The notes: generated from the letters alone by a model not told the origin. A DNA stretch of 41,384 nt from Candidatus Omnitrophota bacterium (GCA_021731625.1 JAKFXC010000006.1:1-41384); one strand, 5' to 3'. Counted from the stretch's first letter, positions 32,249 to 41,161 are shown. A program made the numbers and translations.

Positions 32249-33568
32249 TTAATCGTCCCCTTCGCCGTCCAAATGCGCCTGGGAGGCACGCAAGCCGATG
32301 GTGGAATCCACATTCTTAACGGTTGCAGTGATGAATTCTTTGGTGTTAGTCACGTTTAATTGTTTGAATAAAAATTCAAAATTCTTCTCGAGCTCCGCTG
32401 CGATGCCGTCTTTGATGTTTTCCGGCAGGCTCATGATCTCTTTTTTGAATTGCCCCAAAGCGCGTTTGCGGGCCTTGTAAATGTATTGCTCGTCGGTGTC
32501 GGTTGCTTTGCGCTCACTCTGGCAATTGGCCTTGGTCCATTCCATCATTTTGGCATACAGATCTTTGGGGAACAATTTGCTGTCCAAAGTCTTGTTTTGA
32601 AAATTGGTGGCCAAATGGATCTCAATGGCATTCACTTCCGGAAACTTATTGAAGGCATTGTCCGGCAACGTCGAGGCGCCATGCTGCACTGCCCCGCCCA
32701 TGCCGTATTTTTTCTGGGCGGCTTCCGACAAGGCTTTCAAAGTGTCAAAATCAACCTTGACGTCGGCGATTTTCCCGTCGGGCAAGACCACCCCCCCATG
32801 CGAAGTCCCGGTTTGCACCGAAATTTTGCTTAAACCCGTCAGGCCTTTGGGCAAGCTGGCATTGAACCCATCCATAAATGCCACCAATTCTTCGACGGTG
32901 CTGTTCTTGTGGCCCACTTCGCCGATTTCGCCGCCGACGGAGATTTCCAGGCCTTTGGGCTGTAGTTTGCGGATGTGCGCGGTCATGGCGGCGCAGACTT
33001 CGAAATTGTCCCTCTGTTGCTCCTTCAGAGTGGGTCGTTTTAAATCCACCGTAGTCGAGGAATCCACGTCAATATTATAAAACCCGGCGGCAATGCAATC
33101 TGCCACGTAATCTTTGAGTCCCGCCACTTCTTTGGCCTTGTTTTCCCAATACGCAGTGGCCTTGATTTGGCTGTGGTCACCCTGGATAAACACCGGGCCG
33201 GTGTATCCTTCTTTGATCGCCGCACCAAGCACCACCCCGACATATTCAATCGGCGGCTGGCTGGTGTAGCCCATTTCTGACTTAGCAATTTCAAAAATAA
33301 AGGCCCCGGCATTGTTCTTTTTGGCCACGCGGAATACGGCCTTAGCCAAATAGTAGGTCAAACAGCGCAAATTCATGGCAGGGGTGGTGAAATTCTTGCC
33401 CTGGCCTTTCCCGCGGGCGATATACGCATCGTGAATAGAAGCCAAAAAAATGCCTTTGGTCTTGGCCTCCGCATGGATCTGGCGGGCCAGCTTTTCTTTT
33501 TCCTTAATATCGTCGGTCAGGACTAACTGTTTGACCAAAGCATCAATGTCGGCAGTCACTTGCGGCAT
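32249..33568 (-). CDS. fba: class II fructose-bisphosphate aldolase family protein
   Basis: 439 residues of a zinc-dependent class II aldolase. Metal ligands and neighbours are visible: D131-H132 in [10 protein letters not shown]214 in [11 protein letters not shown]257 in [10 protein letters not shown] and H296 in [13 protein letters not shown]. It probably cleaves or forms fructose 1,6-bisphosphate in glycolysis/gluconeogenesis, though the exact ketose-bisphosphate is not determined by these motifs. It is about 80-100 residues longer than standard FbaA. The extra length lies at the N-terminus (a helical segment before [11 protein letters not shown]) and in a C-terminal helical tail of about 110 residues. 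GAGGAGG precedes the ATG at six to seven bases, and a strong promoter lies 32-60 bases upstream. Coupled to ilvC. Confidence 0.88.
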
Positions 33569-33868: not shown

Positions 33869-36800
33869 CTAAACCTTAGACAATTTAACGGTTGGTGAAG
33901 AATCTATCTTCTGATTAAGGCCAATCAATTCAAGGAAATTCGGAGCCGGAGCTATGGTGTCAATGACGGGGTATAAGGTATCGATTCTGATGTGATCCAA
34001 ATTCCGCATTTGAATGAACATAGCTTTGTCGAAGGTCGCGTTTTTCTCAATTTTCAAATCAATATTTTTCTTGTTTAAGTCGATACCACCGGGTGCTATT
34101 GCCGCCCTGTCAGCAATGGAAATGCGCACATTCATCACCTGACCTCGTGCCATTCTCCTTCCCCAAGCCAAACCAGTATGAAAAGACAGTTGCGTCACCG
34201 GATAATTAGTCTCGATTTCCACAACATTTTCTTTCTCAGGTGTAACCCGAATTGACCTAGCAAACCGTTCCGAGCCATGTGACTCGCCTTCAGGAAGCGC
34301 CCTAACAAAAATGTCACCTGCAGGGCCAGACCAATTGAATCGGATGGTCCACTTGGCAGTTCGTCCAAAGGTCCCTCGGGCTGGGCTGAAATCCTTGTAG
34401 TTGGATCGCATATCTCCCTCACCCCAAGATTCCAAACGAACCGATTCACCCTGCCCTGCTGAGGCGGCTTTCTGGGGCGATCTCTGTGGTAGTTCTGGTT
34501 TGGCCGGCGCTGGCGCCACTGAAGGGACCGCCGGTAAACGGGAAGCGGGAGATGGCGAAGATTCACTTGCCGTGTAGCTAAAATTAGTGATCTCGCCATT
34601 GACCAAGCGTTGATCCCAGGCTAATCCAAAATGAAATGATAATTGTTGGACAGGATAATTTGACGTAAATGAAAGCTCTTTTTCTCCGGGAGCAACATCA
34701 ATCAATTGAGCCCCGCCCTGATCACCATAGGAAGCGCCTTCAGGCAGCAGTCTTAAGAAAATTTGACCGGCCGGACCATTCCACGTGAATCGGACATTCC
34801 ACTGGGTCTGTTTTCCAAACGCACCCTTTGCCGGCCGAAAATCAACAAACCGAGAATGAATGTCTCCTTTATCGTAGGTTCCCAAACGAACATTCTGTCT
34901 TGACCCCGAGGTTGACGTCTCAGGGGCTGAAGGAGCGGTCGCTTCCCGCTGGCTCGACGGCGAAGGCACTTGACCACTCCGCTGAGTCCCGCTGGGAAGT
35001 GCTAATTTCACCGGGGTTCTGGCATTGTCCAATTGGCGTTGCCTCTCCAACAGCTTTAGATGCACAGGTGAGAATGCCCACGAATTTTTTCCTCCTAAAA
35101 CAAACACATCATTACCTAGTAATACCAAAGCTGGCCATACGGTAGAAGCCGTATTTTCGATAGGGTTACCCCACCATCCAAAAGGAATAAAATACCGCTC
35201 ATTGGTATATTTGTACCCTTTAAATATAACGCGGCCATCGTAGGTATAAACTACGCTTTGCCCTTCGATCCCCTCAAGCATTCCAATGGCATCTTGCTCC
35301 GCCTCTGTGGCATAACTGGGATAATGCTGCGCCAAAATCATCACTGTTTGGAGGGAGAATCCTGTCCATTCCTGACTTATGATATTGTGACCGTCGGTAT
35401 ATCCAATACCTTGAAATTTGTTGCCTTGCAAATATCCCGCGCGTCTTTTAGTTTCTTGCCAAATTTTGAGGGCCGTACCCTTGCCAAACCATTCGTCGAT
35501 TGTTCCGGGAGTCATGATACTGACCGACCAAGCATTAACGTCCGACGCAAAAGTTTTACTAGCAATAAATCTTCCACCTTCGTATTGGCCGCCTTGTAAA
35601 AAGATGTTATTGGCTTTATCCCAAGCATGATTCCGCAAATAATTTTCAATGCCTTTCATTTTATTAAGGTACTTTTTATCTCCGGACACTTCATACATGG
35701 CCCTTAAGGCGGCATACAAGGATAAATTATTCTCCGTCGATATATTTTTATCCGGCGCAAAACCATCGCCAAACGTTCCGCTAGGCGCATAATAGACAGC
35801 TCCAATGGGGGATGTTATCAGATCTAAGGCCTGGAAGATACTTTCGGCCAACTTAAACTCTTTGCTGGCTAGAATTCTGGCTTTATTGCCGTTAAATTTG
35901 AGATGCGCCAACTGCACCTGTACTAAGATTTGCCAAGCATTTTCTCCCGTAATCGGCTGCCAATCCGCCCAAACAATTAAATTCCTATCATAATCTGGAC
36001 CGGGATATCCGGGAAAATGATCAGCTCCAGTAAGTGGATCTTTTTGCTCCCACTCGGGTGCAATAATCCTAAAAAAGGACCCTTGTTGTTTACTAGGCAT
36101 TGTCTTGCCTTGGTAGTTAAAATGCCGAGGGTCAGAAGCCCGAATGGTATCTAATCGACCATACTGTCCTGAAATATAAATGTCTGTCACAACCTCGGCC
36201 GCTTTCGGATTGCCCATAATAGCCTGAAAATACTGCCATAAAGAAGCATCATAGGTGGATACGCCTCTATTGATAATGACTCTTTCAATGACGCCTTGTA
36301 ATGCCGTTTTGCCCCGGATTGATTTCCACAACTCCATCTGTGCCTTCGGGTCCGTCGGAAGTCTGTAAATGCGCGGCATGCCTTGGCCTAATTCATCGCT
36401 TTTATAAACATTATCATCCAGCCAAACTTTCATACGCTCGACGGACGCCAGTCGCCTGGGGTCAATTTTGGAAGTCGATGGCGTGTTCTTCTGGGCAAGT
36501 TCGATTTCTTGCGACGCGACCTTATTGAAAGAAAATATCCCGGTAAAAGCCAATGTGCCTGACATAACGGCAGCCGCCACTGTTTTACTGCGCATCGCAT
36601 TATCTTGCGACAGGGCAGCCGGCGCCTCTGAAGCCGCTGACCAAGAGACCTGGAACATCTCTCCAGATCTGGCATTACTGATGGAACCAAACGCCAGTGG
36701 CATAGTGAGAAAACCCGCTACAATCAGCTTGCCTAATCCTTTCCCAAAAAATCCTCCGGATGTGTACTTGCGGGGAGTTATATGCTGATTGGGTGTACTG

Positions 36801-37744
36801 TAATCATCCTTAATATAGTTGTAAACCCCCTTTTTAAAAGCTTCCAAATATTGCCGATAAATGCGTTCATTGGCCTCTTTATCATTTAAGGCAATGCCGC
36901 TGGTTTTGTGTTGATCGACATACAGTTTTCCTATAATGCCGTCTTTCATGCGGATTTTATACCAGGTGGCTAAAATCATGCCTTGATAGATCTGCCGCAA
37001 ATTGGCAAAATGCTCACCCTCATTGATTTCTTTTTCCAAGGCCGGAAGAATGATTTCACGTACAATTTGAGACGCAACGGAATGCTGAGGCGAAGACGTC
37101 CTTTTCTGGTTTTTATCCAGCGCCAAATAATCCTCTTCCAGCATCACTTTCAATCTTGAATCGATCAAAAATGCGCCTTCACTGTGCTCATAAATACTGG
37201 CCTTTTGAGGCACAATCCAGACTTTATTAAAGGTATTAAGTGGAATATTCGAAGTGCCGAATTGGCTCTGGGCCTGCGCATACACTTGATCCCAAAACTT
37301 CTTGCCCATTTCCTTTTCAGGAAAAGTTAACGAAGCGCTTAGCTGTTTAAGAATATAATCCTGTGCAAGCAGATCTCGTCCCATCTCGGTTTCGCCCAAG
37401 GCTTGGGGAATAATACGGTCCTTCTCGTAGGGAGAAAGGTTAACCCACATCTCGTCTTCGGGAACAGTCAAAGCGGCCAGAAAATATTTGATCAGTTTCA
37501 TGGACTGATCTTTGAGCGCGTCCCCTTTTAAACCGGTGTCGCCGGAATCGATGAGGAAATCAAATTTAAAAGGCTCCTGAGAACGCAGCCTCAGACCTTT
37601 TAAGGAAACAGGCATGTAAGGTTTAGAAATGTGCAGCATTTGCCCCGGCGCAGGCAAAGGTGCCAACTGCGCATATGAACGTGCAGGCAGTAATGAGACA
37701 ACAAAGGATACCATAACTAAAAGCACTATGGACCTTCTTAACAT
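33869..37744 (-). CDS. giant exported protein with shared N-module, glycosidase-like domain, two beta repeats and GGID tail
   Basis: About 1291 residues. Signal peptide 1-26 (MLRRSIVLLVMV, ending SYAQ); the start at 37744 has AAGGAG nine bases upstream, while an ATG eight codons earlier has none. Residues about 27-331 are the module shared with the next gene (EMWVNLSPYEKDRII, LAQDYILKQLSASL, NTFNKVWIV, LKVMLEEDYLALDK), ending PRKYTSGG at 324-331. Two hydrophobic stretches follow, near 338-355 and 388-405. Residues about 432-897 look like an (alpha/alpha)6 glycosidase-type domain (STENNLSLYAALRAMYEVSG, SQEWTGFSLQTVMIL, FGWWGNPIENTASTVWPAL). Two homologous beta domains occupy about 950-1058 and 1099-1209, joined by Pro/Ser-rich linkers. 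The tail has GGIDLNKKNIDL (from 1219) and LYPVIDTIAPAPNFLELIGL. Probably a surface or periplasmic glycan-active protein; enzyme class not assigned. Confidence 0.8.
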   Translation of the reverse strand: MLRRSIVLLVMVSFVVSLLPARSYAQLAPLPAPGQMLHISKPYMPVSLKGLRLRSQEPFKFDFLIDSGDTGLKGDALKDQSMKLIKYFLAALTVPEDEMWVNLSPYEKDRIIPQALGETEMGRDLLAQDYILKQLSASLTFPEKEMGKKFWDQVYAQAQSQFGTSNIPLNTFNKVWIVPQKASIYEHSEGAFLIDSRLKVMLEEDYLALDKNQKRTSSPQHSVASQIVREIILPALEKEINEGEHFANLRQIYQGMILATWYKIRMKDGIIGKLYVDQHKTSGIALNDKEANERIYRQYLEAFKKGVYNYIKDDYSTPNQHITPRKYTSGGFFGKGLGKLIVAGFLTMPLAFGSISNARSGEMFQVSWSAASEAPAALSQDNAMRSKTVAAAVMSGTLAFTGIFSFNKVASQEIELAQKNTPSTSKIDPRRLASVERMKVWLDDNVYKSDELGQGMPRIYRLPTDPKAQMELWKSIRGKTALQGVIERVIINRGVSTYDASLWQYFQAIMGNPKAAEVVTDIYISGQYGRLDTIRASDPRHFNYQGKTMPSKQQGSFFRIIAPEWEQKDPLTGADHFPGYPGPDYDRNLIVWADWQPITGENAWQILVQVQLAHLKFNGNKARILASKEFKLAESIFQALDLITSPIGAVYYAPSGTFGDGFAPDKNISTENNLSLYAALRAMYEVSGDKKYLNKMKGIENYLRNHAWDKANNIFLQGGQYEGGRFIASKTFASDVNAWSVSIMTPGTIDEWFGKGTALKIWQETKRRAGYLQGNKFQGIGYTDGHNIISQEWTGFSLQTVMILAQHYPSYATEAEQDAIGMLEGIEGQSVVYTYDGRVIFKGYKYTNERYFIPFGWWGNPIENTASTVWPALVLLGNDVFVLGGKNSWAFSPVHLKLLERQRQLDNARTPVKLALPSGTQRSGQVPSPSSQREATAPSAPETSTSGSRQNVRLGTYDKGDIHSRFVDFRPAKGAFGKQTQWNVRFTWNGPAGQIFLRLLPEGASYGDQGGAQLIDVAPGEKELSFTSNYPVQQLSFHFGLAWDQRLVNGEITNFSYTASESSPSPASRLPAVPSVAPAPAKPELPQRSPQKAASAGQGESVRLESWGEGDMRSNYKDFSPARGTFGRTAKWTIRFNWSGPAGDIFVRALPEGESHGSERFARSIRVTPEKENVVEIETNYPVTQLSFHTGLAWGRRMARGQVMNVRISIADRAAIAPGGIDLNKKNIDLKIEKNATFDKAMFIQMRNLDHIRIDTLYPVIDTIAPAPNFLELIGLNQKIDSSPTVKLSKV

Positions 37745-37771
37745 ACCCTCTGTCTCCTTGAGTGCCATTTA

Positions 37772-40700
37772 TTAAATTTGCGCCAGCTTTTCTTTCTCAT
37801 CTTGTCTTCCCACAGGCAAGCCTAACATAGGAAGGATATTGTTAATCTGCCTAAAACCGGTAACCTGTGGCAACAGGCCTTGAAAATTTCCGCCTTCAAA
37901 CTGCTGGAGCATTGCCGGATCGAACTTAATCGCCACGCCTGGTCCGTCTTTTCGCATTTGAATGTTCGATGCATCAAAGTCGATACCACCCTGGACTTCT
38001 TGATTTTCAATGTTCATGGCGTTATCAATTTCCAGAGAATTGAGGGTCGCCACGGCGTTATAGTTGCCGCCCGGCAAAGTTCCAACATGCGTGTTTTCGC
38101 CGGTTTGAATCACGACCCTCCTAAGCATTCTTCCTCTCGAATTCCTAACAGTAACATCCCGGGAATTATCACCAGGGCTAGCTCTTAATGGATTTGAATA
38201 GGATACCGGCCTATTCTCATCATCGCCTACAAATACGAATTGCACAACAACGTTTCCGGGTGCCGACGCTTGATAATTAAAATTTAAGCGAACGGTTTGC
38301 CCATCGACAACTTTAACCTGGGTTGGAAGATCTTTATATGCGGACCGGGCCCTATACTCCGGACTATGATATTCTCGCGCTCCGGCTAAAGAAATTTCCC
38401 TTCCTGTGGATTGTTGCGCCCCTGGCTGCTGGATTTCAAATGACAGCGGTGGCTGGGCTTGCTTAGGCGCTGGTTTTGGAGCTGGAGGCGGAACCTCAAA
38501 TGTCAGCGACGGACTTGACGATGGCGCTGCCGATTGGGGCGTAACAGCACCTACCCGTTGCATAAACTCCGATAAAAATCCTCTAAGATAGCCATTGACC
38601 CATACTTCTGGTCCAGTTTGCGCTTGCGCCCCAAAGTCATCGATTGCTCCCAAAATGAGCGGCGCGGTTTCTTTTGTTGCCATCTTGGGCTCCGTTAGCA
38701 GCGCTTGTCCCATCCATTTTCGTCTCTCAATATTTTCACGACGATTTGTAAGAGTCTTAATGATCTCGGGAACGGCCCGGGCCCCCATTCCTCTAAGTCT
38801 AATCATATCAGGACTGTTCCACCCGCCTCCTGCATCTTCAAGGGAGTAACTGGATATATATCGTCTAGCCTCCGCATCATCCGCTGGAGCTGCAGACACC
38901 CCCCCCTGTAAGAGAAGAAAGGTCGCCAGCGTAATGCCGGTAAAAGTCTTATTAAGCCACGCCGTCGAAATCATGGCTTGTTGGCTGCCGCTTTTTATTA
39001 GTTCAGCAACTTCTTGAGGAGATTTTCCGGAAAGATAATACTTATTATCGAACACAGTGGTGGGATATTTGAAAACCTCTCCTGTGCGCACCAATTGACT
39101 GGCCAGTCTAAAAGGCAGCACCAGTCCAGGTACATTTTCTATCGGAATAGACCTCGCAAAACGCTCGATATAAACTGCATCAATTTCGCGTGAATAAAGA
39201 TCAACCCTAGTGAAAGGTTCTAGACCGTGCAGCTCACTTTCTTTGCGGAGTGAGAGCTCTCCCTGCACATACTTAAACCAACCTTCGGTGATCGCACGTT
39301 CGACAAACAATTTGCTCACCTTAAAACCTGGTTTGAGGCCCTGCACTTCGAACATACCGTACTCTTCGGGGTAAGCTGTCTTAAACAAACTTAACTCCTG
39401 GGCAACAGTCTCTTTATTCGCCGGCAAACTGCCCCAGCTTTTTTTACCCACGACCAAACCTTTTTTTTGCAACAGATCGGTAAGCGGTATGGTTAGAAAA
39501 AACTTTCCTCCCAAAAGGACCATGTCGCCGGTGCGCATCATCTCCGCAGCTTGCTGACTGCCTACCTGTAAACTAAAGCCAGGATAATTTTCAAACTCAA
39601 GTCTCGTATCAAAGGGCGGAACTTCCCCTTTGATCGTTTGAAACCATCGCATTTCGCGACTTTCATCGGCGACATTGTCAAAAGGACCTTCTTGTCCAGC
39701 CCTTAAATAATCTCGTAAGGAAACTTTACCGTCCGGGCCAATTTGGAGGTAGCCCTCCTTCAAATAAAAACCGGCTTCCACAGGCCGCATTTTATCTGAA
39801 ATGCCATCGACGTCGATAAAATCGATTTTATTGCCATAAAATTTGTTAAATAAGTTTACCTGTGAATTAAGTTCCGCAGCAGATAAAGGTCTGACCGGCA
39901 CCGTCGGTCTAGAATAAGGAGTCGTCGGGGGTTGCAATTGCCTCACCCAGCTGTAGTATCTGCCCATCATTTCGCCACTGCCAGCCTCAGCTGGAGCAGG
40001 GCCTTGGACGGTTGCCACACTCAAGGCCAACAAAAACGTCCCGATTGCCTTTGGCAGCGAGATCATGGCGCGTTCCCTGGTCAGGGTCACGTCCAGCAAC
40101 CTAAGCCCGCCCGAAAAGTATTTTCTGGGCAGCGCTTTTTGCGAATTCTTGCTGACGTCTTCCTTAATTAAGCTAAACACACCCTTCTTATAGGCCTTCA
40201 AGTACTGCTGGTAAATTTTATTATTGAGGGTTTTGTCGCGTTCATCGACGCCGGAAGTTTTGGATTGATTTGTATAAACTTGATTTAAAAGCGCATTCTG
40301 GACCGACTCTTTATACCATTTGGCGAGTACGAGCGCGTTATACATTTGGCGGAGCGTGGCGAAGTTTTTTCCCTGATTGATTTCTCGTTCAAGCTCGGGC
40401 AGGATGATGTCGCGCATCACTTGGGAAACGCCGGAGCTGGAGGTAGTAGTCCCCTTCGGGGACGTAGCGCTTTTGTTGTTCTTATCGAGCGCTACGTAAT
40501 CTTCCTCCAGCATGACCTTCAAATGGGTGTCCACCACATAAACCGTGTCCTGATGCTCATAAACACTGGCCTTGTCTCCGACGATCCATACTTTATTAAA
40601 GGTATTGACCGGCAGCTGCACCTTGCCGCCCAGGCGCTCTCCGGCCTGTTGATAGACCCTGTCCCAAAATGCCTTGCCTAAGCCCTTTTCCGGGTAAACC

Positions 40701-41161
40701 AAAGACGCCGTGACTTGCTTTAAGAGGTAATCCTGCGCCAGCATGTCTCTGCCTAATTCTGTCTGACCTGTCGATTGGGCAATGATGCGATTTTTCTCAA
40801 AAGGAGACAGGTTGACCCACATGTCTTTCTCAGGCAGGGTCAGCGCGGCATAAAAATATTTGACTAATTTCTCAGTTTCCTTGCTGAGATTAGATCGGGT
40901 TTCGAGACTCAGATTGGAATTGCCGGTGTCGACGATAAAATCCAAGGCCAGAGGATTATCCGGATGGATTTTGAGTCCCTTGATTAAAAGCGGCACATAG
41001 GCCGGGCTCAAATCTACCATTTTTCCAGGAACGGGCAAATTCAAAACGGTTCCGGCTTGAACGGGACTTATCGGAAGGTAAGTAAAATTAAAGGCGCATA
41101 AAACAGAAAGCAACACATATCTAAACAGGGTCTTGGTGCGGATTTGGCATAAAAAATTCAT
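37772..41161 (-). CDS. giant exported protein with shared N-module, unknown middle, Pro-rich linker and GGID tail
   Basis: 1129 residues; ATG preceded by a perfect AGGAGG at seven bases. Signal peptide about 1-36 (RTKTLFRYVLLSVLCAF, cut after PVQA). Residues about 38-352 are the shared module (DMWVNLSPFEKNRII, LAQDYLLKQVTASL, NTFNKVWIV, LKVMLEEDYVALDK), ending PRKYFSGG at 345-352. A hydrophobic segment ending in APAEAG (about 366-394) and then SGEM follow, as in the neighbour. Residues 400-730 are not recognised. A second hydrophobic segment (736-759, ending GGVSAAPA) precedes a short helical part (about 785-845) resembling HEAT repeats. A Pro-rich linker (about 878-916) leads to a beta domain (920-1050). 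The tail has GGIDFDASNIQMRKDGPGV (from 1058) and NNILPMLGL near the end. Function unknown; it and its neighbour clearly derive from one family. Confidence 0.8.
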   Translation of the reverse strand: MNFLCQIRTKTLFRYVLLSVLCAFNFTYLPISPVQAGTVLNLPVPGKMVDLSPAYVPLLIKGLKIHPDNPLALDFIVDTGNSNLSLETRSNLSKETEKLVKYFYAALTLPEKDMWVNLSPFEKNRIIAQSTGQTELGRDMLAQDYLLKQVTASLVYPEKGLGKAFWDRVYQQAGERLGGKVQLPVNTFNKVWIVGDKASVYEHQDTVYVVDTHLKVMLEEDYVALDKNNKSATSPKGTTTSSSGVSQVMRDIILPELEREINQGKNFATLRQMYNALVLAKWYKESVQNALLNQVYTNQSKTSGVDERDKTLNNKIYQQYLKAYKKGVFSLIKEDVSKNSQKALPRKYFSGGLRLLDVTLTRERAMISLPKAIGTFLLALSVATVQGPAPAEAGSGEMMGRYYSWVRQLQPPTTPYSRPTVPVRPLSAAELNSQVNLFNKFYGNKIDFIDVDGISDKMRPVEAGFYLKEGYLQIGPDGKVSLRDYLRAGQEGPFDNVADESREMRWFQTIKGEVPPFDTRLEFENYPGFSLQVGSQQAAEMMRTGDMVLLGGKFFLTIPLTDLLQKKGLVVGKKSWGSLPANKETVAQELSLFKTAYPEEYGMFEVQGLKPGFKVSKLFVERAITEGWFKYVQGELSLRKESELHGLEPFTRVDLYSREIDAVYIERFARSIPIENVPGLVLPFRLASQLVRTGEVFKYPTTVFDNKYYLSGKSPQEVAELIKSGSQQAMISTAWLNKTFTGITLATFLLLQGGVSAAPADDAEARRYISSYSLEDAGGGWNSPDMIRLRGMGARAVPEIIKTLTNRRENIERRKWMGQALLTEPKMATKETAPLILGAIDDFGAQAQTGPEVWVNGYLRGFLSEFMQRVGAVTPQSAAPSSSPSLTFEVPPPAPKPAPKQAQPPLSFEIQQPGAQQSTGREISLAGAREYHSPEYRARSAYKDLPTQVKVVDGQTVRLNFNYQASAPGNVVVQFVFVGDDENRPVSYSNPLRASPGDNSRDVTVRNSRGRMLRRVVIQTGENTHVGTLPGGNYNAVATLNSLEIDNAMNIENQEVQGGIDFDASNIQMRKDGPGVAIKFDPAMLQQFEGGNFQGLLPQVTGFRQINNILPMLGLPVGRQDEKEKLAQI

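Follow-up and report, generated by a model that had tools for sequence, protein, structure and literature searches.

A 41,384-nt stretch of DNA from a Candidatus Omnitrophota bacterium (GCA_021731625.1, JAKFXC010000006.1:1-41384), referred to here in its entirety as the window, encodes two adjacent proteins, P0001 and P0002, that belong to a large family with predicted signal peptides, constant ends and exchangeable middles. The window corresponds to contig C12 in a 2.28 Mb, 95%-complete assembly. Each family member comprises, in order, a signal peptide, an N-terminal module of ~310 aa (N-module), a linker, at least one cargo domain, a further linker and a C-terminal tail that begins with GGID. 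We think it rather likely that the family consists of Sec-exported polyproteins whose N-module and tail act as one unit and whose cargo is released by a protease at the linker peptide.

Constant ends and exchangeable middles

Over 317 columns, the N-modules of P0001 and P0002 share 53% identity, and they contain all of the stretches quoted in a first-pass annotation of the window. The GGID tails reported there are present on both proteins, though only 24% identical, and the middles, which it had described as completely different, show no mutual similarity. The adjacency of the two genes is real but not special. A search of the assembly with the P0002 N-module as query returned ~57 dispersed paralogous copies (46–68% identity) in open reading frames (ORFs) of 527–3061 aa, which sum to 197 kb or 8.6% of the assembly, and no recurrent partner gene emerged from the neighborhoods, represented by 200 flanking ORFs. 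The tail is conserved beyond this locus, both in other genomes and at 56 places in the same assembly, a number that matches the N-modules. Within this genome the N-modules reach a pairwise identity of 77%, and 1 of 1540 pairs of middles is homologous. Constant ends around variable cargo, as proposed from the adjacent pair, are thus a property of the whole family.

Pairing of the two ends was examined in this genome and in others. Both N-module and tail exceeded threshold in 45 ORFs of the genome, three further ORFs have a visibly degenerate tail end (GG[IL]), and the remaining copies lie at contig ends or are broken by frameshifts with the tail in the next frame. Among 80 loci from other genomes, the tail terminates 60 of the 63 N-module ORFs that have a visible stop; two of the three tail-less ORFs reach assembly gaps, and the third (L120) goes on in another frame that carries a tail. 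Independent occurrence of either end was therefore rejected, as the apparent singletons checked in the genome and among loci L071–L150 represent contig or locus ends, frameshifts, gaps or degenerate tails. Locus L018 is the one clear exception and is unexplained. Distance matrices of N-modules and tails are correlated (r = 0.65; permutation maximum 0.15), indicating that both ends are inherited together while the cargo is replaced.

The association with Omnitrophota made in the first-pass annotation is borne out by the distribution of the N-module. In a scan of a sequence collection, titles among the best 80 of 481 relatives were Omnitrophota or Omnitrophica, with a few records labeled ‘bacterium’, Elulimicrobium or Planctomycetales. 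Labels outside the phylum at loci L077 and L102 (Planctomycetales) and L103, L119 and L120 (bacterium) are probably provisional. The genome was placed in one order with G038 and G053. Of its 55 close relatives, 52 carry the N-module in 1–61 copies each, and phylum-wide it was found in 45 of 146 good genomes, with divergent members in further families of the class. The divergent members that were checked retain the signal peptide and N-module, and several have a minimal tail, for example GGIDLRNMRINLR, pointing to the GGID strand as the tail's core. Among the family members seen, the longest is a 5839-aa frame headed by an N-module (G050:C85:24545-25537).

Neither the N-module nor the tail had a convincing counterpart in Pfam, NCBIfam or the PDB, the last searched by sequence and with two predicted folds, in agreement with the earlier remark that the N-module lacks a recognized catalytic motif. 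The tail, with consensus GGID[LF]...GF.PVI..I.P...L..LGL, gave one weak PDB match as a profile (5il7, whole-sequence E 1.3e-4) that covers half of the tail without any single significant stretch and is probably due to chance. An AlphaFold2 model of the P0002 N-module alone (residues 34–352) is mixed alpha/beta with pLDDT 72 and pTM 0.76. A short relative modeled whole reached 90–98 over most of the N-module and 78–94 over the tail, with low values for cargo and linkers; its alignment covers N-module and tail, and both query and alignment differ from those of the N-module-alone model. A PDB fold search with the two models returned no match. These confidences are consistent with, but do not prove, a composite unit formed by N-module and tail. 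The two ends, which are inherited together, probably fold into one unit, whose role would be to take cargo through the envelope, to sort it, or to retain it until it is processed.

A simple test of hydropathy and sequence pattern, rather than SignalP, was used to assess signal peptides. An N-terminal hydrophobic segment was found in 55 of 56 paralogs in the genome and an AxA-like site in 54 of 56, so that signal peptides with a signal peptidase site, as in Sec-secreted proteins, are predicted almost throughout. The first-pass suggestion of a dedicated export, display or assembly system is supported by these features as far as export is concerned. Nothing specific was found for display, nor for the anchor role it had considered for the N-module.

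A lineage-specific peptide between domains

A short peptide found just behind the N-module and at the domain boundaries, together with its lineage variants, had been overlooked in the first-pass annotation. In the middles of the genome's own family members, Ala-Met is the most enriched dipeptide, and Asp is strongly favored two residues earlier. The motif [DNS]xAM was observed 112 times where 11.9 were expected (maximum 23 in 1000 shuffles). It lies no more than 63 aa from the N-module in 38 of 45 proteins (2.4 expected), and in that region it reaches 18.7 copies per 1000 aa, compared with 0.38 in 25 other window genes. Related genomes carry other versions. SSP[ILV] occurs 19 times in G039 (0.3 expected), where DxAM occurs twice (2.6 expected), and SD[AT]G[IL] occurs four times in G038 (0.0 expected). 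By eye, and at few loci, we also recognized D-x-S-M in G053, N-x-[AS]-[VIL] in G034 and SS-x-[IV] in G042. The form common to these variants is [D/S/N]-x-[small]-[hydrophobic].

Methionine codons within the motif raise the question of whether its ATG serves as an internal translation start, from which each domain is also made separately. This is barely credible, because the third codon positions of the xAM motif vary freely, no Shine–Dalgarno sequence or bias toward one lies upstream, and the SSP motif of sister genomes has no ATG. On the first two grounds, xAM was rejected both as a DNA motif and as an internal start codon, and selection acts on the peptide.

A genome uses a single motif at numerous sites that are not homologous, which favors a trans-acting reader, the simplest of which would be a protease. 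A short peptide conserved at domain boundaries is expected of a processed polyprotein and is seen here, and its lineage-specific variants point the same way. Most likely, then, the linker peptide is the recognition site of a dedicated, lineage-specific protease that would cut after the small residue and before the hydrophobic one, freeing the cargo as separate proteins. It is somewhat unlikely that the linkers instead remain uncut, as spacers or cassette-joining scars between shuffled domains of long intact chains. Domain shuffling between the fixed ends is certain, and some linkers are Pro-rich or just flexible (P0001 residues 920–960), both of which such an explanation would accommodate. It does not readily explain why non-homologous linkers of one genome share one motif and those of other genomes another, with codons varying freely; concerted turnover at >100 unrelated sites is difficult to envisage without a trans-acting reader.

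Metabolic enzymes among the cargo

The first-pass annotation had also missed the presence of intact cytosolic enzymes among the cargo, including a multi-enzyme glycolysis chain. Pfam matches in the genome's own middles comprise triosephosphate isomerase (TIM), class I aldolase, GAPDH, an SNF2 helicase, a pyridoxal phosphate-dependent enzyme, epimerases, a LOG-like protein, response regulators, HATPase and a methyltransferase module. SNF2-type helicase domains, found in the putatively exported proteins of loci L088 and L053, are unexpected outside the cytoplasm. Relatives add PGK (4 of 39), PGI, PPDK, enolase, isocitrate lyase, malate synthase, acyl-CoA dehydrogenase, glutamate dehydrogenase and others.

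L219:5984-13999 from G043 carries most of lower glycolysis in one chain: a single frame encodes a signal peptide, an N-module, GAPDH (residues 426–815), a second GAPDH (840–1184), PGK (1201–1625), enolase (1651–2085) and class II aldolase (2216–2672). A DQAM-type linker motif is found at residues 388, 1186, 1638, 2094 and 2197, that is, between the N-module and the first GAPDH and around PGK, enolase and aldolase, and is missing from the GAPDH/GAPDH gap only. Two other loci also carry more than one such enzyme: L218:716-7666 from G007 (TIM, GAPDH and class I aldolase, followed by the tail) and L220 (FBPase_3 and TIM, with SD[AT]G linkers). The TIM of L218 looks circularly permuted, with the beta-1 strand and its catalytic NWK placed after the loop-6 and phosphate-binding segments, and retains its catalytic residues. 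Putatively exported glycolytic enzymes occur in at least 10 genomes. Active-site motifs are intact in TIM, GAPDH, fructose-bisphosphate aldolase (FBA), PGK and enolase, and catalytic motifs are retained even in highly diverged copies. The genome of the window separately encodes a housekeeping GAPDH and a housekeeping TIM, the latter 41% identical to the exported form. The cargo would be drawn from the ordinary protein repertoire of the cell, and recruitment of intact glycolytic and other metabolic enzymes as exported cargo would place part of central metabolism outside the cytoplasm. Such cargo might end up in the periplasm, in the cell coat or in another cell.

The set of enzymes classically found moonlighting on cell surfaces is made up of TIM, GAPDH, PGK, enolase and aldolase. 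The match between this set and the cargo fits a display system, with N-module or tail as anchor and folded cargo as adhesin or coat. For Omnitrophota, a coat made of protein and giant proteins outside the cell have also been proposed (Seymour et al. 2023, PMC10066038). We nonetheless regard display as unlikely, as no anchor feature was found, and SNF2 helicase, isocitrate lyase, malate synthase, acyl-CoA dehydrogenase and response regulators are ill-suited to adhesion; catalytic motifs, moreover, are kept in very diverged copies. The enzymes might also be delivered into prey or host cells and redirect their metabolism. Chlamydia, for instance, secretes glycogen enzymes into its inclusion. Whole cytosolic pathways among the cargo would suit such a role, and a predatory or parasitic way of life has been argued for the phylum (PMC10066038). 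We consider delivery quite unlikely, since no injection machinery is linked with the family here, no neighbors recur, and no ATP/ADP translocase was detected in 55 relatives, a search in which control genomes were silent too.

Frameshifts split ~7 of the 57 copies, placing N-module and tail in separate frames (L003/L163, L033, L049, L050, L058, L165); these copies may be pseudogenes, assembly errors or programmed shifts. At L058, the aldolase is present as an identical tandem duplication beside an assembly gap. Such copies could indicate that the family is a graveyard of functionless captured genes or a product of chimeric assembly. Most ORFs, however, are intact across 1–9 kb, and the recurrence of glycolytic cargo across genomes with intact active-site motifs renders this highly improbable.

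The polyprotein interpretation must itself be viewed with caution, as several observations run counter to it besides the split copies. No protease was identified and no cleavage was observed. In the 50 aa preceding the tail, [DNS]xAM was found in no more than 15 of 45 proteins (1.0 expected), and in some genomes no motif stands out clearly (G037, few loci). For about two thirds of the genome's own cargos Pfam gave no convincing match, and an additional transmembrane (TM)-like stretch in 16 of 45 complicates their topology. It is not obvious how enzymes that depend on ATP or NAD would be supplied with cofactor outside the cytoplasm. Energy parasitism through an ATP/ADP translocase is unsupported, PF03219 being found in 0 of 55 relatives; because control genomes were silent for this family too, its absence is not proven.

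Beyond processing itself, we tentatively raise the possibility, which we would not call likely, that the family supplies a second set of central metabolism outside the cytoplasm. Upper and lower glycolysis, the glyoxylate shunt and pieces of beta-oxidation would be delivered as protease-processed polyproteins by the N-module/GGID-tail export unit, with a processing signal concertedly rewritten several times within the phylum.

The window proteins and known systems

Features of the two window proteins are listed in Table 1. Neither protein has a significant match in Pfam or NCBIfam, and cargo A of P0001 has none in the PDB either. The beta repeats that the first-pass annotation had recognized in P0002 are real, whereas its ‘glycosidase-like’ and ‘HEAT-like’ labels gained no significant support from Pfam, NCBIfam or the PDB. 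In P0001, signal-peptide-like or TM-like stretches at residues 366–390 and 730–757 directly follow xAM motifs (RERAM-ISLPKAIGTFLLALSVATVQGPAPAEA), as though genes for secreted proteins had been taken up together with their signal peptides. A class II aldolase-like gene (window 32252–33568, minus strand) adjoins P0002; it has no signal peptide and shares 35% identity with the aldolase carried by the exported L219 chain.

Table 1 Positions in the window of P0001, P0002 and their parts
Feature	Position	Strand	Basis
P0001, putatively exported modular protein, 1129 aa	37772..41161	-	ORF; N-module and tail matches
P0001 predicted signal peptide, residues 1–36, ...PISPVQA	41054..41161	-	Hydrophobic segment, AxA-like site
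P0001 N-module, residues 42–352, LPVPGKM...KYFSGG	40106..41038	-	53% identity with P0002; paralogs
P0001 linker ERAM (xAM type), directly after N-module	40064..40075	-	Motif enrichment
P0001 cargo A, residues 411–730, ~150-aa repeat x2	38972..39931	-	Self-comparison E 1.7e-4
P0001 linker QQAM (xAM type), separating cargo A from C-terminal cargo, followed by signal-peptide-like hydrophobic stretch	38972..38983	-	Sequence
P0001 linker DNAM, directly before GGID tail	38015..38026	-	
P0001 GGID tail, residues 1058–1129 (GGID at 37979–37990)	37775..37990	-	Tail profile 6.8e-21; alignment
P0002, putatively exported modular protein, 1299 aa	33869..37768	-	ORF; N-module and tail matches
P0002 predicted signal peptide, residues 1–33, ...PARSYAQ	37670..37768	-	
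P0002 N-module, residues 38–339	36752..37657	-	P0001 identity; paralogs; AlphaFold2 model
P0002 linker DNAM, between N-module and cargo	36593..36604	-	
P0002 cargo, two tandem beta domains, residues 961–1226	34091..34888	-	47% identical, E 1.8e-38
P0002 GGID tail, residues 1227–1299 (GGID at 34079–34090)	33872..34090	-	Tail profile 3.3e-15

Several known systems resemble this family in part. The C-terminal domain (CTD) of the type IX secretion system (T9SS) and PEP-CTERM with exosortase also place a common C-terminal tag on many unrelated exported proteins per genome. Unlike these tags, the tail described here is paired with a 310-aa N-module, and it lacks the TM-plus-basic end of PEP-CTERM. 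No T9SS CTD (TIGR04183 type) was found in either window protein by an NCBIfam scan up to E = 1. The T9SS translocon SprA, sought through SprA_N (PF14349), gave no match in 55 relatives, but control genomes were silent as well, so that its absence is not proven. Exosortase (PF09721) was dismissed as a partner, being absent from the N-module-rich genomes G006, G011, G023, G026 and G050 and present in G033, G035 and G036, which have no N-module. In viral polyproteins and in bacterial proprotein secretion, too, a chain contains several functional domains, and a short peptide recurs at their boundaries; the present proteins differ in being cellular, putatively exported and represented by dozens of paralogs with differing cargo, and their cleavage is inferred. 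Metabolic enzymes secreted by chlamydiae and glycolytic enzymes moonlighting on surfaces are precedents for cytosolic enzymes acting outside the cytoplasm. Those are single native enzymes, in contrast to the dedicated, reused module and tail and the pathway-series fusions seen here.

Within the phylum, the closest parallel is with giant ORFs of >20 kb, which PMC10066038 describes as poorly conserved, with few domains and of unknown function, and which include a 39,678-aa protein of Velamenicoccus archaeovorus. Giant Omnitrophota ORFs of this size are also described in PMC12057145. Like the present family, these giants are very large, probably extracytoplasmic and of unknown role. They are single ORFs, whereas we find many proteins of 500–5800 aa that share an N-module, a tail, a linker motif and metabolic-enzyme cargo, and that stay below 20 kb (up to 3061 aa in this genome and 5839 aa in relatives). 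Module, tail and motif are not mentioned in the available sections of PMC10066038. In the open-access literature, as covered here with few subscription journals and no preprints, we found no account of N-module, GGID tail or linker peptide, and none of glycolytic polyproteins that are exported.

Whatever the mechanism, the N-module, GGID tail and linker motif allow thousands of ‘hypothetical’ Omnitrophota proteins to be annotated and mark the domain limits within them. If the proposed scheme is correct, this lineage devotes close to a tenth of its genome to an undescribed means of secretion and processing that exports ordinary enzymes. It would offer natural cases of a cleavage signal evolving in concert across dozens of unrelated proteins and of bacterial central metabolism outside the cytoplasm. 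It would also serve as a concrete starting point for learning how these bacteria, which are uncultured and perhaps predatory or host-associated, interact with their environment.

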